A DNA stretch of 64,000 nucleotides from Rhodospirillales bacterium (GCA_028824295.1 JAPPED010000003.1:124001-188000); one strand, 5' to 3'. Shown: positions 43,234-57,810, counted from the stretch's first letter. The notes: generated from the sequence alone by a model not told the origin. A program made the numbers and translations.

Positions 43234-45795
43234 ATGAGATTGTTGTTGCGTTCGGCGCGCCAATTCGGCGTGCCGGCGTTGGGTGCGGTTGTGCTCGTCG
43301 CAGCCGGATTCGGCGCAGTTCCCGTCGTCGCCCAAGAAACCTTGCCTGAGGTTGAGGTCATCGGCGTTACCCCGATGCCTGGTACTGGAGTGGCACGCGA
43401 TCGCGTTCCTGCTGCAGTCCAAACGATCACGGACGAGGAAATCGACGCGCTGCAACCGCGCAATTTGACCGACCTCGTCGAACAGACGTTGCGCGGTGTC
43501 AGTGTGACGGATGTGCAAAACAGCCCGTACCAGCAGAACCTTTCGTACCGCGGCTTCACGCTCTCGCCGCTTCTCGGGGAGGCGCAAGGGATCGCCGTGT
43601 ACTTGAACGGTGTCCGCGTCAACGAGGGCTTCGGCGACACCATGCAGTGGGACCTGGTGCCGGAAGCGGCGATTCGGCGGATCGATCTCGTGGGTGGCAA
43701 CCCTGCGTACGGTCTGAACGCGCTGGGTGGCGCTTTGTCGCTCCAGACGCAGAGCGGCCTCTCTTTCAGCGGCTCGGAGTTGGAAGTCAAGGGTGGCTCG
43801 CACGGCCGTCTCGACACTGCGGTGCAGGTGGGCGGCAAGCTCGAAGCGACAGCAGTGTACGTGGCCGCAGAGCGGGGCGAGGAGGACGGCTGGCGCGACC
43901 ACAGCGACAGCAGCATTCTGCGGCTGTTTGGTGATGCGACGCACGTCTTCGATCGTGGCTCCCTCGGTTTCAGTGCCCTGTTTGCCCGGACCGAAATCAC
44001 CGGGAACGGCGCGACGCCGGAGGATTTACTCGGAATTCGACGGGAATCTGTGTTTACGTACCCGGACATCACTGAAAACGAATTGGGCATGTTCACGGCA
44101 CGTGGGGAATTTGAAGTTTCGGACAATCTGCGGATATCGGGCTTGGTCTACCACCGGGGATTGCAGCGCGACACGATCAACGGAGACGAATTCGACGGTG
44201 GGTTCGGTGATGACGGCTTCCTGCGTGCCGGAGAGGGTGAAGATGATGATGACGACGACGACGACAACGGAAACGGCCACGTCATGAACGGCAATGGTGA
44301 TGACGATGACGAGGAGGAGGAACAGACCATCCTGTTCGGCTCGGTCGAGGGGGCCGGCGGCACGCCGGAGGCGATTTACCTGTTTGGTGACGACGATGAT
44401 GACTTCCCGACGGCGGGCGCACGCAACCTGACCTTCACCGACACCCAAACCCAAGGGATTTCGCTGCAGGCAGACTTGACCTACGGGGCGCACCAGGTGG
44501 CGTTCGGAACGGTGTACGACCAGTCCGAAACTACCTTTTCGGGCCACACGCTCGTTGGCGAGATGGAAGCGGACCGGAACGTGCCAGCGATGCTCTTCGC
44601 CGACGGTCAACCGCGCATCGTGACTCATGAGTGCGAAGCGGATGACTTCGAAGCCGATGAAGCAGAGTGTGAGGAGGAACTCGAGGAGTCCGACGCGGGA
44701 CCGCTCGATGTGGTTTCGGACTCGCAGGCATGGGGGCTCTACGTTTCCGATACGATGGCCCTGTCCGATCGCACCGACGTGACATTCAGCGGGCGCTTCA
44801 ACCACGTTGCCATCGATCTCCAGATCGACGATGACGACACCGAGTCCCACACCTTCCGGCGTTTCAATCCAGCCGTTGGATTGACCCACCGCCTGACTGA
44901 CCGAATGACCGTGTTTGCCGGCTACCGTGAGGCGAACCGGGCGCCAACGGCTGCGGAACTTGGCTGCGCCGATCCCGAGGAACCGTGTCGCCTGCCGAAC
45001 GCCTTCATCGCTGACCCGCCGCTGGACCAAGTGGTGACACGCTCGGTCGAGGGTGGCCTACGAGGACGCACGGCAACCGCAGTTGGTCCCCTGGCCTGGG
45101 AGGTGTCCGCGTATGCGAGCACGAATCGGGACGACATCATCTTTGTTGCGGTTCCGGAAACCGGCGCGCAGCCGGGTCTCGGGTACTTCCAGAACTACGG
45201 TGAGACCCGACGTGCAGGCTTCGACGGTCAGATCGGAGGCAGCTTTGATCGCTGGGATTGGAATGCCAACTACAGCCATGTTCGGGCCACGTTTGCAGAG
45301 GACGCGGAACTTCCCGGCGCTAACCATCCGGAAGGCAGGGAGATCGAGGGTGCAGACGAAGCCAAGCTGATCGACGTCAGCTCGGGCGACACGATCCCCG
45401 GTATCCCGGAGCATTCGGTGAAGGTCGGGCTCGGCTACACCCTTGACAACGGTTTGCGCATCGGCGCGAACTGGGTGGCCCGTTCCGGCGTGTACCTGCG
45501 CGGCGACGAGTCCAATCAGTTGGCCCAGACGAACGACTACAACGTCGTCAACCTGACGGTCGACTGGACCTTCGGGGCTCTGACACTGTTTGGGCGGATC
45601 GAGAACCTCCTTGGCGAGGACTACGAGACGTTTGGTATCCTCGGTGAGTGCGAGCTTGAGGAGGAAGGCGAGCCGTGTGAAGGCGAAGTCGCCATTCTGA
45701 ACCACGGCCTCCCTGACGACGTGCACCACACGAATCGCTTCCTGTCGCCGGGAGCCCCGCAGTCCTTCTACATCGGGATGCGCTATCACTTCTAG
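43234..45795 (+). CDS. TonB-dependent outer-membrane receptor with acidic loops
   Basis: 853 residues from the ATG at 43234, which starts a good signal peptide ending VVAQ; the frame is open further upstream from a TTG. The plug domain (about residues 45-165) starts LPEVEVIGVTP and includes PRNLTDLVEQTLRGVSV and NGVRVNEGFGD. A 22-strand barrel follows and ends MRYHF. Unusual are a run of eight aspartates (codons 44242-44265), a second acid-rich stretch near 44305, and three acidic loops with cysteine pairs (near 44630, 44965 and 45650). ExbB, two ExbD and TonB genes follow, so this receptor likely has its own energising complex. The ligand is unknown; an iron or other metal complex is favoured by context. 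Confidence 0.92.
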   Translation: MRLLLRSARQFGVPALGAVVLVAAGFGAVPVVAQETLPEVEVIGVTPMPGTGVARDRVPAAVQTITDEEIDALQPRNLTDLVEQTLRGVSVTDVQNSPYQQNLSYRGFTLSPLLGEAQGIAVYLNGVRVNEGFGDTMQWDLVPEAAIRRIDLVGGNPAYGLNALGGALSLQTQSGLSFSGSELEVKGGSHGRLDTAVQVGGKLEATAVYVAAERGEEDGWRDHSDSSILRLFGDATHVFDRGSLGFSALFARTEITGNGATPEDLLGIRRESVFTYPDITENELGMFTARGEFEVSDNLRISGLVYHRGLQRDTINGDEFDGGFGDDGFLRAGEGEDDDDDDDDNGNGHVMNGNGDDDDEEEEQTILFGSVEGAGGTPEAIYLFGDDDDDFPTAGARNLTFTDTQTQGISLQADLTYGAHQVAFGTVYDQSETTFSGHTLVGEMEADRNVPAMLFADGQPRIVTHECEADDFEADEAECEEELEESDAGPLDVVSDSQAWGLYVSDTMALSDRTDVTFSGRFNHVAIDLQIDDDDTESHTFRRFNPAVGLTHRLTDRMTVFAGYREANRAPTAAELGCADPEEPCRLPNAFIADPPLDQVVTRSVEGGLRGRTATAVGPLAWEVSAYASTNRDDIIFVAVPETGAQPGLGYFQNYGETRRAGFDGQIGGSFDRWDWNANYSHVRATFAEDAELPGANHPEGREIEGADEAKLIDVSSGDTIPGIPEHSVKVGLGYTLDNGLRIGANWVARSGVYLRGDESNQLAQTNDYNVVNLTVDWTFGALTLFGRIENLLGEDYETFGILGECELEEEGEPCEGEVAILNHGLPDDVHHTNRFLSPGAPQSFYIGMRYHF
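44242..44265 (+). repeat. GAT/GAC trinucleotide repeat encoding eight aspartates
   Basis: Three GAT codons followed by five GAC codons inside the TonB receptor gene. Slippage would change the length of the acidic loop without shifting the frame. Confidence 0.8.
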
Positions 45796-45837
45796 CTGCA
45801 GTGCCGTCTGATTGCGGGGCCGATTGGGTTCGGGTTT

Positions 45838-45854
45838 TTTCGGATGTTCCGAAA
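45838..45854. promoter_or_regulatory. perfect 7-3-7 palindrome upstream of exbB
   Basis: TTTCGGA-TGT-TCCGAAA lies between the receptor and exbB, 57 bases before the exbB start. It overlaps the end of a T-run (45835-45840) that follows a weak CCGA/TCGG stem, so the segment could combine a terminator for the receptor gene with an operator or hairpin for the exb operon. Confidence 0.45.
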
Positions 45855-45911
45855 TGACCGCCATGTATACAGTTGGCCCCGCAACGGAATGCACGATGTA
45901 CGGAGTACGAT

Positions 45912-46535
45912 ATGCCGGAACTGAGCCTGGAGCACTGGAATGCTGCGGCAGACCTGCTCCAAAAGGGGGGCGCCGTCATGTACGTCCTGCTCCTCTTGTC
46001 GGTCTCGTCGCTGGCAGTGATTCTTTTGAAACTATTGCAGTTTTGGAGAATCGGTGCGAGGCGTTCTGGCATGATGGAACTCATCGCGACCGGATCTACC
46101 CACGAAATCCGGCGCCGAATGGCGCTGTCGCGCCATCCGGCTGCGCGCGTGGTCGAAACGGCACTCGACACGGGTCATCTGCCGCGTGAACTCCAGGAAG
46201 CCGAGATCGAACGCATCGGGTCGGTCGAAATCCGCACCCTGGAGACGTACATTCGCTCACTGGAGGTGGTGGCGAACTTGAGCCCGCTGATTGGGCTCCT
46301 CGGGACCGTGATCGGAATGATCAAGGCGTTCGGGCGCCTAGAGGAGGCGGGCGCACGGGTGGATCCCAGCCAGCTTGCTGGCGGGATCTGGGAGGCACTC
46401 CTCACGACTGCTTTCGGACTGATTGTGGCGATTCCGGCGCTTGGTGCCGTGCACTACTTTGAACGCAAGATTGAGGGGGTGCGAGCGCTGATGCGCGACG
46501 CGGCCGCCCGCGTGATCGCGTCGCAGTCGGTCTAG
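45912..46535 (+). CDS. exbB: ExbB/TolQ-family proton channel
   Basis: Inner-membrane proton channel of the TonB energising complex. The 207 residues contain three transmembrane helices (about 20-42, 110-135 and 155-175). The family signature is intact: LSPLIGLLGTVIGMI and the later EALLTTAFGLIVAIPA. The ATG at 45912 follows GGAG. The length is slightly below E. coli ExbB. It heads a tightly packed run exbB-exbD-exbD-tonB. ExbB versus TolQ is decided by the neighbouring TonB receptor. Confidence 0.92.
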   Translation: MPELSLEHWNAAADLLQKGGAVMYVLLLLSVSSLAVILLKLLQFWRIGARRSGMMELIATGSTHEIRRRMALSRHPAARVVETALDTGHLPRELQEAEIERIGSVEIRTLETYIRSLEVVANLSPLIGLLGTVIGMIKAFGRLEEAGARVDPSQLAGGIWEALLTTAFGLIVAIPALGAVHYFERKIEGVRALMRDAAARVIASQSV

Positions 46536-46575
46536 GGAGTCGTCGCCGGCATCGGCAAGCAATCAGGATTCCACC

Positions 46576-46983
46576 ATGAACTTCGGCGAACAGGAGCGCC
46601 GCCGCGCGGAACTTTCGATCGCGCCGTTGATCGACATCGTGTTCCTCTTGCTGGTGTTCTTCATGCTGGCCGGATCGTTCCTGAACCTGGAAGCGCTAGA
46701 TCTTGCGAGCCCGGGTACCGCAACCGCGGCGGGAGGCGGCGGCGAATCAGACGCGCTCGTGATCCGCTTGCACGACGACGGAGCGGTGACGTTCGGGAAC
46801 GTTGTGGTTGACCCGGATGAGATCGTCGAGCGTGTCGAGCGGGCGCGAGCAGAAGACGCTGATCTGAAGGTGGTGGTAGTGGCGCCTTCCCAGGAGGCGG
46901 TGCAACGACTGATAACAGTCGTCGACGACATCCGTATGGCCGGGGTCGAGGCCATCGCGATCGCGGTGCGAGACGAACTGTGA
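46576..46983 (+). CDS. exbD: ExbD/TolR-family protein 1
   Basis: 135 residues with one N-terminal transmembrane helix holding the essential aspartate in LSIAPLIDIVFLLLVFFML, followed by a periplasmic domain. It works with ExbB to couple the proton gradient to TonB. Its stop overlaps the next gene's GTG start (GTGA). Confidence 0.92.
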   Translation: MNFGEQERRRAELSIAPLIDIVFLLLVFFMLAGSFLNLEALDLASPGTATAAGGGGESDALVIRLHDDGAVTFGNVVVDPDEIVERVERARAEDADLKVVVVAPSQEAVQRLITVVDDIRMAGVEAIAIAVRDEL

Positions 46984-47393
46984 AATTCGAGGGAGCCCCG
47001 CGCCATCGGCAGCACGCGATCAACATGGTGCCTTTGATCAATATCGTCTTTTTGCTGCTGATCTTTTTTATCCTGACCAGTACATTTCGAACCATCGATC
47101 CGATTGACCATCAGCTCCCGGAGGCTGACAGCAGCGAGCCCGGTGTCGCGGTTGAGGCTGTGTTAACAGTGGCGGCCGACGGCGAACTCACGATCGACGG
47201 GGAACCGGTGGCCCGGGGTAGCCTTCCGGCAACCTTTCGCGCGGCGGTGGCGGCAGACAAGACGACGCTCCTGATCAAGGTGGCGCAGTTGGCCACTATC
47301 TCGATGCTCCGCGACGTCATGGATGAGGCCAAGGTGGCGGGCTTTGATCAGGTGCTGCTTGCCACGCGCCGGACCGAGCTCGAGGCACCGTGA
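46980..47393 (+). CDS. exbD: ExbD/TolR-family protein 2
   Basis: 137 residues, again with a single helix carrying NMVPLINIVFLLLIFFIL. Here the usual aspartate of the family (LIDIVF in ExbD 1) is an asparagine (LINIVF), so this copy may not carry protons itself. Two ExbD genes in tandem are known from several TonB systems and may form a heterodimer in the ExbB pore. Start and stop both overlap neighbours as GTGA, implying coupled translation. Confidence 0.9.
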   Translation: MKFEGAPRHRQHAINMVPLINIVFLLLIFFILTSTFRTIDPIDHQLPEADSSEPGVAVEAVLTVAADGELTIDGEPVARGSLPATFRAAVAADKTTLLIKVAQLATISMLRDVMDEAKVAGFDQVLLATRRTELEAP

Positions 47394-48670
47394 TCCCCCA
47401 GGCCGTTGCCCGCGGCGCAAACGAGATCAATTTTCTGGATGTGACAGGAGCCGCCATTGTTGCCGTTGCGCTCCACGTCATGGTCCCGGCAGTCGTCGGG
47501 ATCTGGGCGCTGAGCGAGCCCGAACTCGATTTGGAGAATTACATTTCCCTCGAGCTCGGGCACGACGTACCTCTCGGAGACTTGCCGCCCGACGCACTGG
47601 CGGCAGCCCTGCCGGACCAGGATGTTCTGCCGCCGGCAAATGAGCCTCCCGCCGCCCTGACGCCACCGCCCGAGACCCCACCTGTGCCTACGGACACGCC
47701 GCCGCCCGTAGTCGAGACCGTCCCCGACCTCCCGCAACCGCCGCCAGAGATTGAAGCTCCCCCGACGCCGGTGACGCCCCAGACAAGATTGCTGGAGCCG
47801 GAACCGACCGAAGTTCTCGTTGAGCCCGTGCCCGAACCGCCACCACCACCGGAAGTACTGCCGGAGCCCGAGCCCGAGCCGCTGAGCGAGCCCGAGCCGC
47901 CCGCCGTGCCCCAGCCGCCGGAACTTCCGGATACCCCGCAACCACGTCCCGACGTCGCACCTCCACCTGCCCCAACAGAAGTGCGGCCGGTCGAGCCGCC
48001 CCCGCTGGAGCAGGTGCTGGTACCTGATCTCGAACCGCCACCGCCACCGCCCCCCGCCGTGCCTGCACCTGAAACCGTAGTCGAACCCGACCTTGCTCCG
48101 CCGCCACCGCCGCCTCCTCCAGCTCCCCCGGCTTCACGAACGGCACCGGCCACGGTCACACCACCGCCGGCACGCACGACCGAGGCACCGCCGCCGGTCG
48201 CCGCCAACGTACCGATTGCTGCACCCACGCCCGTAGAGGCTCCGCCATCTGCGGAACCCCCGCCGGCGCCCCAAGCGCTGTTGGCGTCGGCGCCCCCTGC
48301 GGTGACTGCCCCGCCGGCGCCGCCGGCACGCCCCGAGTCGGCCTCGGCCAGGGCGGCGCGTGAGGCGGGGGTTCCAGAGGCCTACTACGTCCGCCTGCGT
48401 GGCCAGATCAGCACGATCGCGGCCCGAAGCTATCCGCGCCGCTCTCTCGATCTAGGCGAGGAGGGGACCGTCGTCATGCTGATCCGGGTACGCGAGGACG
48501 GGAGCGTCGTCGACATCACGATCGAGGAGGAACGCACGAACGCATCGCTTCGCATCCGGCGAGCAGCGCAAAGAGCGGTGTTGCGCGCGGCACCGTTCGA
48601 ACCGCTGCCGGCAGGGGCGGGTGTCAAGTCGATCCTGTTGCCAGTGGTGTACCGGATCGCCGAACGCTAG
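47390..48670 (+). CDS. tonB: proline-rich TonB-family energy transducer
   Basis: 426 residues. An N-terminal transmembrane helix (about residues 20-42) is followed by a very long proline/glutamate-rich spacer (roughly 85-315, with many PEP, PPP and EPEP repeats). The C-terminal TonB domain (about 320-426) ends with the LPVVYRIAER strand. E. coli TonB has 239 residues, so the spacer here is unusually long and could span a wide periplasm. It starts with GTG overlapping the exbD stop. It should contact the receptor encoded upstream. Confidence 0.92.
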   Translation: MIPQAVARGANEINFLDVTGAAIVAVALHVMVPAVVGIWALSEPELDLENYISLELGHDVPLGDLPPDALAAALPDQDVLPPANEPPAALTPPPETPPVPTDTPPPVVETVPDLPQPPPEIEAPPTPVTPQTRLLEPEPTEVLVEPVPEPPPPPEVLPEPEPEPLSEPEPPAVPQPPELPDTPQPRPDVAPPPAPTEVRPVEPPPLEQVLVPDLEPPPPPPPAVPAPETVVEPDLAPPPPPPPPAPPASRTAPATVTPPPARTTEAPPPVAANVPIAAPTPVEAPPSAEPPPAPQALLASAPPAVTAPPAPPARPESASARAAREAGVPEAYYVRLRGQISTIAARSYPRRSLDLGEEGTVVMLIRVREDGSVVDITIEEERTNASLRIRRAAQRAVLRAAPFEPLPAGAGVKSILLPVVYRIAER

Positions 48671-48896
48671 AGACGGCCAGCCGGTCCAATACTTGGCGAG
48701 TGGAGGATTTGCGACCGCCGGCAGCGGGCTGCTGGTATCTGGACACCGCAGCGCTAGCGGACTATGAAACGAGTCATCTCGGTCGTACGGTTAGCGGCCG
48801 ACCATATGGCGCCTGGCAGCGAGGAGGAGCCGCTGCCGGCGACAACAGCGAGGGTGTTCCCCGAGCGGGCACCCGGAAAGGTCTCCTCGTACCGTG

Positions 48897-50135
48897 ATGA
48901 GAACACGAGCCTTGTCGTCGCGGCATGCGGCCGCCGCGCTTCTCCTGTCAGCCTGCTTGCTCTGTGGTCCTGTGTCCATGGTGACCGCGGACCAAACTTC
49001 TGGAGCGGTTGCTCGGGTATATGCCGACATCGCAATTGCCGGCTACGAAGATTCACTCTTGCGGGCAGGGCTGCTGCAGCAGGCTGTAACAGACCTGATT
49101 GAAGCGCCTTCCAGTGCCACGCTGGCGGCCGCAAGAGAAGCCTGGAAGCAGAGCCGGATTCCCTACATGCAAACCGAGGTGTTCCGGTTCGGAAACACGG
49201 TGGTCGATGACTGGGAGGGACGGGTGAACGCCTGGCCACTCGACGAAGGTTTGATCGACTACGTGGTCGGTAACCCGGATGCGGTCAACGTCATCGCCAA
49301 TCGCACACTGCTGATCAACGGCACCTCCGTGACGGCGGATCCGATCGACGTTGCCTTGCTGCAAGACGTGCTGCACGAAGCCGAGGGCATCGAGACGAAC
49401 GTTGCGACCGGCTATCACGCCATTGAGTTCTTGTTGTGGGGACAGGACTTGCACGGGACCGGGCCGGGGGCTGGAAATCGCCCAGCGACGGATTTTGACC
49501 CGGCCCGCTGCACAGGCGGAAACTGCGAGCGACGAGTCGCCTATTTGCGCACGGCTACGGACCTATTAGTAGCCGACCTCGAGTGGATGACGGGCGCGTG
49601 GCGTGAGGGCGGGGCCGCCCGCACTTCCCTGGAGAATCTGGACGCGGCAGGTGTTGTACGCGTGATCGTAACCGGGCTGGGCAATCTTGCGGCCGGCGAG
49701 CTCGCGGGGGCCCGCATGCAGGTCGGTCTGGAGTTGCACGATCCGGAGGAGGAGCACGATTGTTTTTCCGACAACACGCATGAATCCCACTACTGGGATG
49801 CGGTGGGGTTGCGAAACGTCTACATGGGGCGATACCACAGGGTTGATGGATCGATGATCGAGGGTCCGTCACTGTCCGAACTGGTCCGTGCCGCCGACCC
49901 TGAACTCGACCGGAAGCTTCATGATGGAATCGACCGGGCGATCAGGCGAGTCGATGCGATTCGGGATGCTGCCGCCGGTGGAAAGGCCTATGACCAACTG
50001 CTGGCTCCAGACGATCCCGAGGGAGGCGAGCTGATCGGCGAGGCCATCCAGGCGCTCATCGCTTTCAGCGAGCAGCTCAGGGAAGTCGGGCCGCTGCTTG
50101 GCGTCGGCGAGTTCCAGTTCGAGATCGAGGGATAG
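48897..50135 (+). CDS. imelysin-family (IrpA/ICMP-like) periplasmic protein
   Basis: 412 residues with a signal peptide (about 1-31) and two helical repeats of the imelysin fold. The GxHxxE metal-site motif is present as GYHAIEFLLWG. A long insert with CTGGNCE and a conserved HDCFSDNTHESHYWDAVGLRNVY segment place it in the IrpA group (COG3487). Members are iron-regulated periplasmic or outer-membrane-attached proteins thought to bind iron or haem. A cytochrome-like gene follows 24 bases later, an arrangement common for this family. The double ATG/GTG at the start leaves a one-codon uncertainty. Confidence 0.9.
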   Translation: MRTRALSSRHAAAALLLSACLLCGPVSMVTADQTSGAVARVYADIAIAGYEDSLLRAGLLQQAVTDLIEAPSSATLAAAREAWKQSRIPYMQTEVFRFGNTVVDDWEGRVNAWPLDEGLIDYVVGNPDAVNVIANRTLLINGTSVTADPIDVALLQDVLHEAEGIETNVATGYHAIEFLLWGQDLHGTGPGAGNRPATDFDPARCTGGNCERRVAYLRTATDLLVADLEWMTGAWREGGAARTSLENLDAAGVVRVIVTGLGNLAAGELAGARMQVGLELHDPEEEHDCFSDNTHESHYWDAVGLRNVYMGRYHRVDGSMIEGPSLSELVRAADPELDRKLHDGIDRAIRRVDAIRDAAAGGKAYDQLLAPDDPEGGELIGEAIQALIAFSEQLREVGPLLGVGEFQFEIEG

Positions 50136-50159
50136 GATCGGCTTCCCGGGAAAACACCC

Positions 50160-51644
50160 TTGATTGCCCGCATTACCTCGGACACCGTCGCGCGCCTGGC
50201 AAAGGCGGCAAGGGTACTGCTGCTTGGTCTGGTGATCGTCCATGGTGCAGCCGCGGCCAACGGTCCCGATGGGGCGCCACGGTCCTCCGCAGATGCAAAG
50301 CTGGCTGCGGAGCTGACCGCATGGCCCGGGGACTTCTCCAGACCGGAGGCATACGAAGGTCACGCAGGGGGAGCGGGGACAAGTTTCCACGCGCCGACTC
50401 GAAATGCGTTCTCGCATCCGGCCCAGAATCTTGCCCCTTCCCAACGCACCCGATTCCGGGTGGGAGACGCGATCTTTCGCAAGCTTTGGGTAACGGCCCC
50501 AGCTTCCACGGCGGCGTCAGACGGGTTGGGTCCGCTGTTTAATGCCCGATCCTGTCAGCGATGCCACCGCAAGGACGGTCGCGGTCGGCCGCCACTCAAC
50601 GAGGACGATCGAGGCGGCACGCTGCTCCTGGCCTTGACGCATCCGGACGGCGCAGATCCGGTGTACGGCAGACAGTTGCAGACCCACGCGGTCCCGGGAA
50701 TCCCGGCCGAAGGCAAGATCTCGATCACGCACCGAATGATCCCGGTGGCGGGGCAACCGGATCTCGAACTCCGCAGCCCCCAGTACGGTGCACTGAACCT
50801 CAGCTGGGGGCCGCTGGATCCACGGACTGGACTGTCTCCACGGGTAGCACCGCCAATGATCGGGCTCGGACTACTGGAGGCGATACCCGACGCAGATATC
50901 CTGGCCCATGCGGACCCTGACGACGCTGATGATGACGGGATTTCTGGCCGGCCGTCCTGGGTGGCTGCGGAGGCCGGCGGCGCCCCTGTGCTCGGCCGGT
51001 TTGGTTGGAAGGCTGCTGTTCCCACCGTCCGCATGCAGGCAGCGAAAGCCTTCTTCGAGGACATCGGCATCGGCAGCGGGCTGTTTCCGGGGTCCGCCGG
51101 CGCCTGCACGGAGGTGCAAGCCGAATGCCGGAATGCGCCCGGTGGAGACCACAATGACGACGGGATCGAGATACCGGCACGGTTGTTCGACCAAGTCGTG
51201 TTTTACTCGCGGAACTTGGCGGTGCCGGCCAGACGGGATCCCGACAATCCGGACATCCTGGCCGGAAAGCGGATCTTTTTTGACAGTGGCTGCGCCGACT
51301 GCCACGTGCCGAAGTTCGTAACCCAACGAACCGCGGACCGACCCGAACACAGCTTCCAGTTGATCTGGCCCTATACGGACCTGCTGCTGCATGACATGGG
51401 CGAGGAACTTGCCGACACCGGAGCTGACCCGCTGCGTCGCGAATGGCGAACGCCGCCCCTCTGGGGCATTGGTCTGACCGAGACCGTGAGCGGCACGTTC
51501 AGGTTGCTGCACGATGGTCGGGCCGACGGGCTCATGGAGGCCATCCTTTGGCACGGAGGAGAGGCCGCCGCGTCGCGAGACCGCGTGGTGCAGTTGTCAG
51601 AGGAGGAACAGGAGCGCCTGCTGGAGTTCCTACGCTCACTCTAG
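50160..51644 (+). CDS. di-haem oxidoreductase, COG3488/DUF1111 family
   Basis: 494 residues with a signal peptide (about 1-35), so the protein is periplasmic. Two c-type haem motifs are present: CQRCH (around residue 131) and CADCH (around 379). Between them lies the DUF1111 domain with conserved segments such as GLGLLEAIPDADIL and GRFGWKAAVPTVRMQ. The start is a TTG; no in-frame ATG precedes the signal sequence. The family pairs with imelysin proteins in many genomes and is proposed to take part in iron oxidation or reduction at the cell surface. Confidence 0.9.
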   Translation: MIARITSDTVARLAKAARVLLLGLVIVHGAAAANGPDGAPRSSADAKLAAELTAWPGDFSRPEAYEGHAGGAGTSFHAPTRNAFSHPAQNLAPSQRTRFRVGDAIFRKLWVTAPASTAASDGLGPLFNARSCQRCHRKDGRGRPPLNEDDRGGTLLLALTHPDGADPVYGRQLQTHAVPGIPAEGKISITHRMIPVAGQPDLELRSPQYGALNLSWGPLDPRTGLSPRVAPPMIGLGLLEAIPDADILAHADPDDADDDGISGRPSWVAAEAGGAPVLGRFGWKAAVPTVRMQAAKAFFEDIGIGSGLFPGSAGACTEVQAECRNAPGGDHNDDGIEIPARLFDQVVFYSRNLAVPARRDPDNPDILAGKRIFFDSGCADCHVPKFVTQRTADRPEHSFQLIWPYTDLLLHDMGEELADTGADPLRREWRTPPLWGIGLTETVSGTFRLLHDGRADGLMEAILWHGGEAAASRDRVVQLSEEEQERLLEFLRSL

Positions 51645-53235: not shown

Positions 53236-53670
53236 CTATCGCAAGGGATCGACCACACTGAGAAACGGGAACCGATGAAAGTCGGTATCGCGGGTGCAGA
53301 TCCGGCTTACGCCATTCTCACGCATCAGGACCGCGGTGCGCAGGTGGTGGAACAAGTTCCCGCTCACGTCGGGCAACTCCTTCATGACCTGTGCCAATAC
53401 CGCCCCATGGCGAGACGTCGCTACGAGCAAGTCAAATCCAGGAGTTTCGAGCAACGCCGAGAGAAAATTCCAGGACTGTACCGGCTTCCACGGAGAGGCG
53501 GACGCACGTGGATGGGTGGTGACCCGTAGAAACTCGTAACCGATGCTCCAGGTTAGATACGCTGGCGATGGATCATTGCGGGCCTGCAGGACCCGCTGTC
53601 GGCATGGGTCGTGATAAGGGGAATCCTCATCGACTGCGTAGATCAGGACATTGGTGTCAAAGACCAACAC
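53236..53670 (-). CDS. vapC: VapC-like PIN-domain toxin
   Basis: 144 residues of the PIN ribonuclease fold, the toxin half of a VapBC-type module. Acidic residues D5 (FDTN), E46 (YEF), D128 and D130 (TRDTDF) fit the active site. In relatives, the segment before ALMRE usually reads GNLVHDAH, with an aspartate that helps bind magnesium; here it is GNLFHHLR, with H109 in its place. This may weaken or abolish RNA cleavage. It begins with GTG directly after the antitoxin stop codon. Confidence 0.87.
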   Translation of the reverse strand: MLVFDTNVLIYAVDEDSPYHDPCRQRVLQARNDPSPAYLTWSIGYEFLRVTTHPRASASPWKPVQSWNFLSALLETPGFDLLVATSRHGAVLAQVMKELPDVSGNLFHHLRTAVLMRENGVSRICTRDTDFHRFPFLSVVDPLR

Positions 53671-53910
53671 TCACACCCCGTCGAGAAGCCGGTAGAGCTC
53701 TTCGCGGTTGGCGATGTCAACCCTGATCCCCCCGCTCTTCCAGGTCGGCAACGGCGGTAGGGTGTCCGGGATTCCCGCGCCTGGTCCGGAGTTCGCGAGA
53801 ATCCGCCTAAGCCCAGCTTCCACCAGGGACGACATGGTGGTTCCCCGCCGTGCCGCCTCTTCTCGCAGTTGCCGCATGACGGCCTCATCGATATTCAGCG
53901 TCGTTTTCAT
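53671..53910 (-). CDS. vapB: VapB-like ribbon-helix-helix antitoxin
   Basis: 79 residues from the ATG at 53910. MKTTLNIDEAVMRQLREEAA and TMSSLVEAGLRRIL form a ribbon-helix-helix DNA-binding domain. The C-terminal part (SGGIRVDIANREELYRLLDG) is the likely toxin-binding tail. Its stop codon directly abuts the toxin's GTG. As in related modules it probably represses its own promoter. An upstream ATG adds 12 residues but gives a poorer match to the family start. Confidence 0.87.
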   Translation of the reverse strand: MKTTLNIDEAVMRQLREEAARRGTTMSSLVEAGLRRILANSGPGAGIPDTLPPLPTWKSGGIRVDIANREELYRLLDGV

Positions 53911-54564
53911 ATGGAAAACCGCATGTTCAGTATTCCAGTATGGCAAAGGGGTCGTGGATGCGGTGTTCCGTCCCTTGCAGGAGACGCGAGCCCCCGGTGG
54001 GGCCGTGCGCGTGGTACGGCGTACCGTCGCGGCCCGGCCTTGCGGCGGTCACGTGCCTGGCATCGAGCAACCAGAAGGACTCGATGATGGTCCGGGCAGG
54101 GCTGGACGGCATGGGCGTGGCGCTGGGTCAGAGGGTCCGTGGGTCACGGTTCGACGGCGCATCGTGCCGGTCGCAGGTTGCACAGCGGGGAAGTTGCCCG
54201 GCGTCGTGAAGTTGTCGCGGTCGGGACGCTGGGCCGCGGCTGCTGTTCGACATTGGGCGACGTTGCCCTGCCGCTCCCGTATGGGCTTCCGGCCCCTCGG
54301 CAGCGATCCATCCGTATGGGTCAAGCTTAATGGCGTAAACATGCCATTGGACCCAACTCTCAGGCACGCCGCCAGCGAAGCGGAGCGCTCGATCGAGGGC
54401 ACCCGGCGGAATTCAGCAGCGGGTGTTCACGGTCTAAAGCCGGTCCTTGCCGGGTGTCTGCCGTTTCCTGATCAATACTCACTGCGGTCGGGCAGGATCG
54501 CTCAAGTTGAAGTTTGCGGCAGGTGCTCCAATAATGAATATCCAACGTGTGAGAAGGAGTACCA
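53911..54564. other. long intergenic region between antitoxin and proX
   Basis: About 650 bases. It holds an AATGGC/GCCATT inverted repeat with an 8-base spacer (54329-54348) and a promoter-like pair near proX (listed separately). Long open frames across it look like chance GC-rich frames. Confidence 0.4.
54507..54535 (+). promoter_or_regulatory. sigma-70-like promoter for the proXWV operon
   Basis: TTGAAG and AATAAT are separated by 17 bases, 29 bases before the proX ATG. A clear AGGAG ribosome-binding site follows at 54555-54559. Confidence 0.4.
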
Positions 54565-55590
54565 ATGATGTTGAGATTAATTCAGGCACTCGCACTCACC
54601 CTGGTCTCGACATCGGCGGGCGTGGCGCTGGTGTCGGCTCAAGCCGAAGCGTCCGAGTGCGGCAGTGTCACGATCGCCGACATGAACTGGAACTCCGCAA
54701 CGTTCATTGCCAACCTCGATCGATTCATCCTCGAACACGCCTATGGCTGCAGCGCCGAGCTTGTCGCGGGCGACACGATGCCGACCGGGACATCAATGGT
54801 GGAGAAGGGCGAGCCGGATGTCGCGCCTGAGCTTTGGAGTAACTCGTTTAGGGCGGCGATCGACACCGGAGTGGCCGAGGGCCGGTTGGTCTTGGCTGGA
54901 AAGGTGTTCTCCGACAGTGGTGAAGAAGGATTCTGGGTTCCGGGCTACATGGTCACCGAGCGTCCAGAACTTGCGACCATACAGGGCGTGATTGAACACG
55001 CGGACCTGTTCAAGAACCCGGAAGACCCCAGCATGTCGCTCCTAATGGGGTGTCCGTCAGGCTGGAACTGCCAGATTTCTGCAGAGAATCTGTTTCGGGC
55101 ACTGAACCTCGAGGAGGCAGGGTTCGAACTTGGAGATCCTGGTTCCGGAGCGGGATTGGCCGGGTCATTGGCGAAAGCCTACGAACGCGGGGAGCCGTGG
55201 TTCGGTTACTACTGGGCACCGACCGCGCTGCTCGGCAAGTATCAGATGGTCAAGGTTGATTTCGGCTCCGGCGCAGACGTCGAGGAGTTCCGCAGCTGCA
55301 CCACCCAGCCGGACTGCCCGGACCCGAAGCCGACCATGTATCCGCCGTCTCCAGTGCACACTCTCGTTACGGCCGACCTTGCCGAACGATCGCCCAGCGC
55401 CATTGCCTATCTTTCTCAGCGGGCGTTTAGCAACAGTTTTCTGAACGCGTTGCTTGCCTGGATGGAGGAAAACCAGGCCGATGGTGAGACCGCCATGGTG
55501 CATTTCCTGACCAACAACGAAGATATGTGGCGTCCTTGGGTGCCAGACGACGCCTTGCCGCGAGTAAAGGCCGCGCTCGCCGAGCTCTAG
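54565..55590 (+). CDS. proX: glycine betaine/proline ABC transporter, substrate-binding protein
   Basis: Periplasmic binding protein of 341 residues with a signal peptide (about 1-25) and the OpuAC fold. Conserved pieces include MNWNSATF near the mature N-terminus, VAPELWSN, and GYYWAPTALLGKY with aromatic residues suited to a quaternary ammonium ligand. Cysteines in GCPSGWNC and SCTTQPDC could form disulfides. AGGAG lies 5 bases before the ATG. The permease and ATPase genes follow. The permease gene begins 293 bases later, an unusually wide gap within an operon. Ligand could be betaine, proline betaine or choline. Confidence 0.9.
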   Translation: MMLRLIQALALTLVSTSAGVALVSAQAEASECGSVTIADMNWNSATFIANLDRFILEHAYGCSAELVAGDTMPTGTSMVEKGEPDVAPELWSNSFRAAIDTGVAEGRLVLAGKVFSDSGEEGFWVPGYMVTERPELATIQGVIEHADLFKNPEDPSMSLLMGCPSGWNCQISAENLFRALNLEEAGFELGDPGSGAGLAGSLAKAYERGEPWFGYYWAPTALLGKYQMVKVDFGSGADVEEFRSCTTQPDCPDPKPTMYPPSPVHTLVTADLAERSPSAIAYLSQRAFSNSFLNALLAWMEENQADGETAMVHFLTNNEDMWRPWVPDDALPRVKAALAEL

Positions 55591-55883
55591 TCGCTCGTGC
55601 CGGCGCGGTGGTCCTTTGCCACCAGGGCCGGCTTGTGGACCTCTGCCATGCTGCCGCTCCGACGCGGCAGTCGAGCGCTGCCGCGCGTTCCCGGACAGAA
55701 CAACCATTTGCGGCGAAGCCGGCCGCCGTGCTGCGTCCTCCAGCTCATTTCTGCTGTGGAAGTTCGCGAGGTTCCGGGCGGCAAACTTCTCCTGGCGTGC
55801 TGGACGGCCTCGATACGTCAGTAGGAGGGAGCTGCCGCACCCGCGCAATCACGAATCGGCCATGAACTTGGGAGACCGCACCA

Positions 55884-56783
55884 ATGGCTAGCAAAGCATG
55901 GTGGATCGAGTTTCCACAGATGGAGCGCGAGTCCCTGGTAGCACTTCGCAAGACGCTCGACGGTGCCTATCGAGAATTCTCGCGGTCCTATGGCGAATTG
56001 ATCGAAACCTTCTTCGAGCCGCTTCTCAAGTTCCTTGTCTGGTTCGAGAGGATTCTGCTCAATGCTCCGTGGTGGGTGGTTCTGCTTGCGGTTTGTGCGT
56101 TCGCCTTCCTTGCGAGCCGTTCATGGAAAATCGTCGCCGGAACAATCGTCGCGTTTCTGCTGATCGGTTATTTCGGCATGTGGGAAGACACGATGAGCAC
56201 CATGAGCATGATCGCCGTGTGCACGCTGCTGTCGATCGTGCTCGGGGTTCCGATTGGCATACTGATGGCCAGGTCGGATCGTACTCAGGCCGTGGTAACC
56301 CCGCTGCTTGATGTGATGCAAACGATGCCAGCGTTTGTGTATCTCATTCCGGTCGTGATGCTGCTCGGTATCGGCAAGGTACCAGGTCTGATTGCCGTTG
56401 TGATCTATGCCGTTCCCCCGGTGATCCGTCTTACCAATCTCGGTATTCGTTTGGTGGACCGCGAGGTACTGGAGGCCTCCGACGCGTTCGGGGCAAGCGG
56501 CTGGCAGCGGTTGGTCGGAGTCCAGATTCCCCTGGCATTCCCGACCATCATGGCGGGGGTAAATCAAACGATCATGATGGCCCTGGCGATGGTCGTAATC
56601 GCGTCGATGATTGGTGTTCAGGGCCTGGGACAGCCTGTCCTTCGATCGATTACCAACCAGTACTTTACGTTGGGGCTGCTCAACGGTCTCGCTATCGTAG
56701 CCTTGGCAATCATCTTCGACAGGGTTTCGCAAGCCTATGGCAAGAGGCTTCAATTGCAGTACAAGCAACCCCATCATGCCTGA
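55884..56783 (+). CDS. proW: glycine betaine/proline ABC transporter, permease
   Basis: Inner-membrane permease of 299 residues with about six or seven transmembrane helices. The ABC-coupling EAA loop reads EASDAFGASGWQRLVGVQIPLAFP. The N-terminal ~60 residues are hydrophilic, as in ProW. The last 8 bases overlap the ATPase gene start, so the two are coupled. The start ATG follows GGGAG about 12 bases upstream. Confidence 0.92.
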   Translation: MASKAWWIEFPQMERESLVALRKTLDGAYREFSRSYGELIETFFEPLLKFLVWFERILLNAPWWVVLLAVCAFAFLASRSWKIVAGTIVAFLLIGYFGMWEDTMSTMSMIAVCTLLSIVLGVPIGILMARSDRTQAVVTPLLDVMQTMPAFVYLIPVVMLLGIGKVPGLIAVVIYAVPPVIRLTNLGIRLVDREVLEASDAFGASGWQRLVGVQIPLAFPTIMAGVNQTIMMALAMVVIASMIGVQGLGQPVLRSITNQYFTLGLLNGLAIVALAIIFDRVSQAYGKRLQLQYKQPHHA

Positions 56784-57810
56784 GCCCATGGTTCTCATCC
56801 GAGGTCTCTACAAGATCTTCGGACCTCGCGCAAAGAAGGTGCTGCCGATGGTGCTTGACGGCATGGGTAAGCAAGAACTTCTTGACAGTCACGGTTGCGT
56901 ATTGGGCCTGCGCGATATCAATTTGTCAGTGCCGCGACATTTCATTCAAGTCGTCATGGGACTTTCAGGTTCCGGAAAATCGACCCTGCTTCGGCACATC
57001 AACCGGCTGATTGCGCCGACCGCCGGGGAAATCGTCGTGGATGGTCTTGATGTGTCGACCATGGACGAGCCGACGCTGCGCGAGTTTCGGCGACACCGTG
57101 CGTCAATGGTGTTCCAGCGTTTCGCACTCCTGCCTCACCGCACCGTCCGCGATAACATTGGTTTCGGCCTGAGGATTCAGGGGCTGGAAAGCGCGGAAGT
57201 CGAACGGCGCGCGTCCCGCTGGATCGAACGTGTCGGTCTTGAAGACTTCGCTGATCGCTATCCCGGAGAACTCTCCGGCGGCATGCAGCAGCGGGTTGGC
57301 TTGGGCCGGGCGTTGGCAACGGATCCCGATATCCTGCTGATGGACGAAGCATTTAGCGCTCTCGATCCGCTGATCCGATACGACATGCAGAACATGCTCA
57401 TCGACCTGCAGAAAGAGCTCAAGAAAACAATCGTCTTTATCACGCATGATCTTGAGGAGGCGTTGCGCATCGGCGACAACATCACGATTTTGCGCGACGG
57501 AGGGGTTGTGCAACAGGGCACCGCGCAGGAAATCGTGCTCAAGCCCGCAGACGACTATGTCGCGGATTTCGTCAAGGACGTCAATCGGGGCAAGGTCATC
57601 AGGGTGGAGAGCATCATGAAACCGGCGACCGAATGCGCCGACACCCCCGCAATTCCGGTTGGGACACGGCTCGAACGCGCTGCGCTCGCGCTATCGGAGG
57701 CGACGTCGGAAAGAGGAACGGTCACGGGTCGGGATGGGAAGGCCCTCGGGAGCATTTCACAGCTGGACCTACTGAGCGCGATGGTGCGGCGAAAGCAGCC
57801 AGCCAACTAG
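56776..57810 (+). CDS. proV: glycine betaine/proline ABC transporter, ATP-binding protein
   Basis: 344 residues. The ATPase domain has Walker A GLSGSGKST, Q-loop MVFQRFALLPH, signature ELSGGMQQR, Walker B ILLMDEAFSALD and the switch histidine in FITHD. As in ProV there is an N-terminal extension, and a C-terminal regulatory tail begins near residue 275. The tail is shorter than two full CBS domains. The start at 56776 overlaps proW by 8 bases; ATG at 56788 is an alternative. It powers uptake of compatible solutes and protects against salt stress. Confidence 0.93.
   Translation: MPEPMVLIRGLYKIFGPRAKKVLPMVLDGMGKQELLDSHGCVLGLRDINLSVPRHFIQVVMGLSGSGKSTLLRHINRLIAPTAGEIVVDGLDVSTMDEPTLREFRRHRASMVFQRFALLPHRTVRDNIGFGLRIQGLESAEVERRASRWIERVGLEDFADRYPGELSGGMQQRVGLGRALATDPDILLMDEAFSALDPLIRYDMQNMLIDLQKELKKTIVFITHDLEEALRIGDNITILRDGGVVQQGTAQEIVLKPADDYVADFVKDVNRGKVIRVESIMKPATECADTPAIPVGTRLERAALALSEATSERGTVTGRDGKALGSISQLDLLSAMVRRKQPAN

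Follow-up and report, generated by a model that had tools for sequence, protein, structure and literature searches.

A probable LutH-like lanthanide-uptake operon housing the sole TonB energiser of a Rhodospirillales genome, beside an ordinary imelysin–DHOR pair

The locus described here, positions 43234–51644 of a 64,000-nucleotide stretch from a Rhodospirillales bacterium (GCA_028824295.1, JAPPED010000003.1:124001-188000; the whole stretch is called the window below), contains seven open reading frames, all on the + strand and all with strong Pfam matches. The first one (43234–45795) encodes a TonB-dependent receptor with the plug (Pfam Plug, E 4e-15) and barrel (E 9e-38) typical of such proteins, and with very acidic Asp/Glu loop inserts. 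It is followed by the genes for ExbB (45915–46535; MotA_ExbB PF01618, E 5e-29), of which the start is an ATG chosen inside a longer listed reading frame (45873–46535), for two ExbD proteins (PF02472), ExbD1 (46576–46983) and ExbD2 (46980–47393), and for a TonB of 426 aa (47390–48670; TonB_C PF03544, E 4e-8). The two ExbD genes overlap by 4 bp, as do those for ExbD2 and TonB. After a gap of 226 bp (48671–48896) come an imelysin gene (48897–50135; PF09375, E 6e-83) and, 24 bp further, the gene of a di-haem protein, DHOR or COG3488 (50160–51644; PF06537, E 8e-89). An initial annotation had already placed these seven genes in one stretch and had pointed to the long proline-rich spacer of TonB, in which residues 51–340 are 35% Pro. 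Both observations hold, although the grouping of all genes into one iron or haem import system was probably wrong, as was the substrate. The first five genes probably form an operon for lanthanide uptake, with a LutH-like receptor and the only TonB energiser of the cell, next to an imelysin–DHOR pair of the ordinary type.

The locus is composed of two adjacent units, i.e., receptor–ExbB–ExbD–ExbD–TonB (43234–48670) and imelysin–DHOR (48897–51644). Across the genus, the region is syntenic in the order porin, NNR, receptor, ExbB, ExbD, ExbD, TonB, imelysin, DHOR and an FMN-binding gene, with the seven-gene order being complete at three loci (L026, L028, L029) and partial at three others (L025, L154, L155). 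Since the porin and NNR flank is equally syntenic, gene order within the genus does not in itself prove functional linkage. Outside the genus the blocks are separate, so that the conservation of the seven-gene order, which had been put forward as a check on a single system, extends no further than the genus. The five-gene order occurs without imelysin after it in another genus of the family (L202 of genome G010, on a contig that stops about 0.6 kb past TonB) and in another family (L201 of genome G151), which supports the earlier view of receptor and energising genes as a unit. In G010, the imelysin–DHOR pair lies on a separate contig, more than 29 kb from the contig start. Likewise, the contig with the pair is not the one with TonB in G008 and G011, where a receptor of the LutH-like clade described below is found directly upstream of TonB (L151/L152). 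In these sister genera the pair is thus unlinked from TonB, contrary to the linkage of receptor and imelysin that had been claimed. Among 79 named imelysin–DHOR loci of other genera or phyla, none has the five-gene arrangement beside the pair, and eight have a receptor within 10 kb. The joining of both units is seen only in this genus, in which imelysin–DHOR became the downstream neighbour.

These comparisons bear on the model of the initial annotation, in which the receptor hands over iron or haem to imelysin and DHOR in a self-contained route. The model is consistent with the seven genes being adjacent and co-directional throughout the genus, with the occasional presence of a receptor near the pair elsewhere, and with the literature on the pair, as imelysin/DHOR operons of Pseudomonas aeruginosa are iron- and Fur-linked (PMC3143127) and lruB of Leptospira is raised under iron limitation (PMC7567364). 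However, each of the units occurs without the other, and they are set apart by the 226-bp gap. The model is further weakened by the energiser and by the receptor itself.

In the genome, which is 3.02 Mb in size and 97.9% complete, the TonB of the window is the only TonB_C protein above cut-off. A weak TonB_C match at C12:23343, which has one ExbD and one ExbB gene beside it, most likely represents TolA in a Tol-Pal locus. One TonB is likewise found in six of the seven genus genomes, and two in the seventh (G004). The window encodes all parts of a TonB–ExbB–ExbD complex, including ExbB, ExbD and TonB_C domains and an Asp in the membrane helix of ExbD1. As the genome has 12 Plug-domain matches and no second, general TonB, this motor cannot be private and has to power the remaining 11 receptors as well. 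The energising complex is therefore not a dedicated one, as had been proposed, which also argues against a self-contained iron route.

The two ExbD proteins differ in the transmembrane residue that carries protons. ExbD1 has the Asp (APLIDIVFLLL), whereas ExbD2 has an Asn at the position equivalent to Asp25 (VPLINIVFLLL). The same split is present in every complete tandem pair examined, namely those of the genus, G010, G151, G036, G060 and Actibacterium (L090), and such pairs span at least six alphaproteobacterial genera; at L156 one partner reading frame was unreadable, which places this locus outside the comparison. In a few proteins of the genus the ExbD1 motif is ASLIDIVFLLL, still with the Asp, and single ExbD/TolR proteins retain this residue too. 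A search for ExbD2 on plasmids gave no match, and no description of the Asp/Asn split was found in the literature searched. In E. coli, ExbD D25N has been described as inactive (PMC11658791). From this residue pattern, the two ExbD proteins are predicted to work as an obligate heterodimer that has a single proton site. That the lanthanide-uptake operon works through such an obligate asymmetric ExbD1/ExbD2 motor, with Asp only in ExbD1 and with the receptor hard-wired to the sole TonB, is a more specific proposal and a rather doubtful one. If it is true, this would be a natural Ton motor with one proton site. The conserved pair offers a natural test of the number of proton sites that the Ton motor needs.

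To place the receptor, a maximum likelihood tree of 56 proteins was built, in which the Burkholderia cenocepacia relative mentioned below is not a row. The window receptor and its relatives, including receptors adjacent to lanM and to genes of pyrroloquinoline quinone (PQQ)-dependent alcohol dehydrogenases, form one clade (UFBoot/SH-aLRT 100/100), with PqqU of E. coli as the nearest outgroup (95/91). FepA, FhuA, FecA, CirA and BtuB of E. coli and the other receptors of the genome itself fall outside, as do all six imelysin-linked receptors that were placed in the tree. The receptor is thus not of the iron or haem type and stands apart from iron, B12 and imelysin-linked receptors. Upstream of the receptor gene, in its promoter region, no Fur-like site exceeded the chance level either, and the iron/haem route of the initial annotation is unlikely. 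NCBIfam hemin/siderophore matches suggested a haem receptor, but these are far below cut-off and the assignment was rejected. A comparison with PDB sequences gave only weak matches to the colicin I receptor, and in viral contigs no relatives were found.

The clade can also be recognized by sequence features. The window receptor bears the clade signature PTAAELGCADPEEPCRL. The Cys pair of the motif EL-C-AD--PC-L is common to all 31 core members and lacking in PqqU; a regular expression for the motif matched 27 of the 32 proteins in the clade and none of the 24 other proteins. Moreover, the large loop following NGD(E/A) is acidic throughout the clade and extremely so in this genus, with a net charge per 25 residues of -14 to -19 (-14 in the window), compared to -5 to -8 in the other receptors of the genome. 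By standard TonB-receptor topology, the long loops would be extracellular.

Several of the best plasmid-borne relatives of the receptor, which are about 31–39% identical to it, lie near genes of PQQ or lanthanide biology. In Variovorax, Burkholderia multivorans and B. cenocepacia (the last by tblastn), they adjoin a PQQ methanol/ethanol dehydrogenase; in Sphingobium and Novosphingobium they lie in ped/quinoprotein clusters, and in Paraburkholderia next to pqqBCDE. In M. nodulans, a true LanM gene is situated at a distance of about 0.9 kb from the relative; its product scores 174.8 bits with NF053806, above the cut-off of 135. The relatives in Caballeronia, Methylocalor, A. vitis and Ideonella have no neighbour of the PQQ or lanM type within 6 kb; the one in Ideonella has methanobactin-type genes beside it. 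No PQQ-alcohol dehydrogenase was found in the flanking sequence covered for 17 control receptor loci, consisting of own paralogues and imelysin-linked receptors. A LanM fragment on a plasmid of M. extorquens CM4 (L241) has no annotated receptor adjoining.

Other neighbours were observed as well. At L204:6553-9638 (G168), a receptor of the clade adjoins a protein of 186 aa that contains two PepSY stretches and in this recalls the lanthanide-binding LanPepSY. At L213:10422-12303 and L214:10370-11698, receptors of the clade adjoin two-component systems, one of which has a LapD/MoxY-like sensor domain; a function in lanthanide or methanol sensing is possible. In the genome under study itself (G000, contig 27; L068:6227-10058), another receptor follows a small 167-aa EF-hand protein at about 0.7 kb, possibly as a second metal-receptor locus.

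The genome is rich in enzymes that could use the metal. It has nine matches to PQQ-alcohol dehydrogenases (TIGR03075), and genus genomes have 8–10 each, although a few of these matches are fragmentary or do not reach the family cut-off. Six enzymes were inspected, and at the catalytic Asp all of them show DYD or DWD, in which a second Asp is the accepted mark of lanthanide-type enzymes (Keltjens 2014, cited in PMC12482762). Among 289 genomes of the class, PQQ-alcohol dehydrogenases are present in 14 of the 17 with a receptor relative and in 57 of the 272 without (p=4e-7), and in 11 of 14 when the genus is excluded (p=1e-5), although the genomes are related and these 2x2 p-values overstate independence.

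The same association could point to PQQ itself as the substrate, with the receptor being a PqqU-like importer that supplies the many PQQ enzymes. PqqU is indeed the nearest outgroup, relatives adjoin PQQ enzymes, and G010, in which no pqqC was detected, retains the receptor. Nevertheless, pqqC is present in all seven genus genomes, so the genus probably makes its own PQQ and has less reason to import it. With the PqqU model, the receptor scores 62 bits, far short of the cut-off of 1200. From the PqqU signature residues Y99(F/W), R304 and R365 (PMC12124388), two out of three fail to align in the clade, which in this low-identity alignment has L, A, Q or V at Y99, a gap or another residue at R304, and R in most members at R365. 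Finally, acidic loops fit a cation and not a tri-anion. Altogether, PQQ import is a very improbable explanation.

Alternatively, the receptor may take up another hard cation, such as Ca2+ or Fe3+, or a metallophore, with an indirect link to PQQ enzymes. Acidity alone cannot pick the metal, and three genomes (G010, G156, G193) have no detected PQQ-alcohol dehydrogenase. Yet the adjacency to LanM and the association with PQQ-alcohol dehydrogenases across classes argue against this explanation, which is considered improbable.

Lanthanide uptake is thus favoured, with a number of points that weigh against it besides the relatedness of the compared genomes. Firstly, the acidic loops could also bind Ca2+ or Fe3+, and the anchor of the tree is the receptor adjoining LanM on the M. 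nodulans plasmid, not a LutH of proven function. Secondly, none of 14 class-level relative loci has a PQQ-alcohol dehydrogenase within about 7 kb. At E<=1e-100 this enzyme was not found in G156 and G193 either, nor in G010, which has the receptor–TonB block and lacks a detectable pqqC. Thirdly, the own-genome EF-hand protein is only weakly lanmodulin-like, at 34 bits, below the LanM cut-off of 135. Furthermore, searches for a promoter, a terminator and regulator sites found none, and the receptor has neither a lut-type ABC transporter nor LanM as a neighbour, the nearest ABC transporter of the window being of the choline/betaine type. Such lut or LanM neighbours are typical of Methylobacteriaceae, and LutH-like receptors as a group need not have them.

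On the lanthanide reading, the five genes would be transcribed as an operon, and trivalent lanthanide ions, either free or chelated, would bind to the large acidic loops and the barrel vestibule of the receptor. TonB would then pull on the TonB box of the plug, driven through ExbB–ExbD1–ExbD2 by the proton gradient, so that the plug opens. The metal would enter the periplasm and be loaded into the many periplasmic PQQ-alcohol dehydrogenases of the cell, while the same motor would serve the other 11 receptors as well. According to an ocean survey (PMC11996626), the lack of a known residue signature makes it hard to find rare-earth receptors beyond those similar to the ones of Methylobacteriaceae. 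The combination of clade, Cys-pair motif and acidic loop provides a testable signature. It also suggests that in some bacteria TonB-dependent transport is centred on lanthanide uptake.

The second unit (48897–51644) is a canonical imelysin–DHOR pair, probably for periplasmic or surface iron handling. The imelysin has an M75 domain and the GxHxxE motif (GYHAIE at 172), as in the ICMP family, and its closest solved structure is ICMP of P. aeruginosa (PDB 7xrx, E 1e-106). The two CxxCH haem motifs of DHOR are CQRCH and CADCH. At almost every locus retrieved from outside the genus, DHOR lies close to imelysin, and the pair is general in the 79 named loci. A longer canonical operon, imelysin–DHOR–second imelysin–DUF1513, is found in, e.g., Azospirillum and is reduced in the window. 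An FTR1/EfeU permease is absent in this genome. At L030:788-2218 (G003), the DHOR match is in three pieces with gaps, and the gene may be frameshifted there.

Promoter and terminator scans were at chance level, and none of the sites of the Fur, Irr/ICE and IRO type was convincing. In the 48671–48896 gap, neither a terminator nor a sigma-70 site was found, and no Fur box was convincing; the best Fur-like match upstream of imelysin (11/19) was reached by 10 of 200 shuffles. An Rfam search gave no match. A tRNA-Pro(cgg) called by ARAGORN (47851–47925, - strand), antisense to the tonB spacer, is probably a false match in Pro codons. Further downstream, two small adjoining genes (53236–53946, - strand) resemble, by eye, a VapBC-like toxin–antitoxin pair with a PIN-like product and a small partner, and an ABC transporter of the choline/glycine-betaine type (54565–57810) comprises a binding protein, a permease and an ATPase.

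The locus resembles several characterized systems in part. LutH of Methylorubrum extorquens is needed for lanthanum import and is repressed by lanthanum (PMC7391723). Like the LutH systems (lut cluster of M. extorquens AM1, PMC7391723; LutH-like receptors, PMC12482762), the clade holds a lanM-adjacent member, the genome is rich in lanthanide-type PQQ-alcohol dehydrogenases, and relatives occur on plasmids of unrelated taxa. Unlike LutH, the window receptor has ExbB–ExbD–ExbD–TonB as its partners instead of a lut ABC transporter or LanM, and its loops are much more acidic. PqqU (YncD of E. coli), the nearest characterized outgroup, is also tied to quinoproteins, but the window receptor does not keep its PQQ signature and the host probably makes PQQ. 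The second unit is similar to PA4370-4373 of P. aeruginosa and to lruB of Leptospira (LIMLP_14170-14180), in which a GxHxxE ICMP-type imelysin is followed by a di-haem DHOR; in contrast to these operons, it has no second imelysin or DUF1513 and is followed by an FMN-binding PF04299 gene. The energiser is best compared to tonB1-exbB1-exbD1-exbD2 of Sphingobium SYK-6, the main and undisruptable Ton system of that strain (PMC8599685). Both are main TonB operons with tandem ExbD genes that serve several receptors, but in the window a receptor gene leads the operon and ExbD2 has Asn, whereas both SYK-6 ExbD proteins have Asp25.

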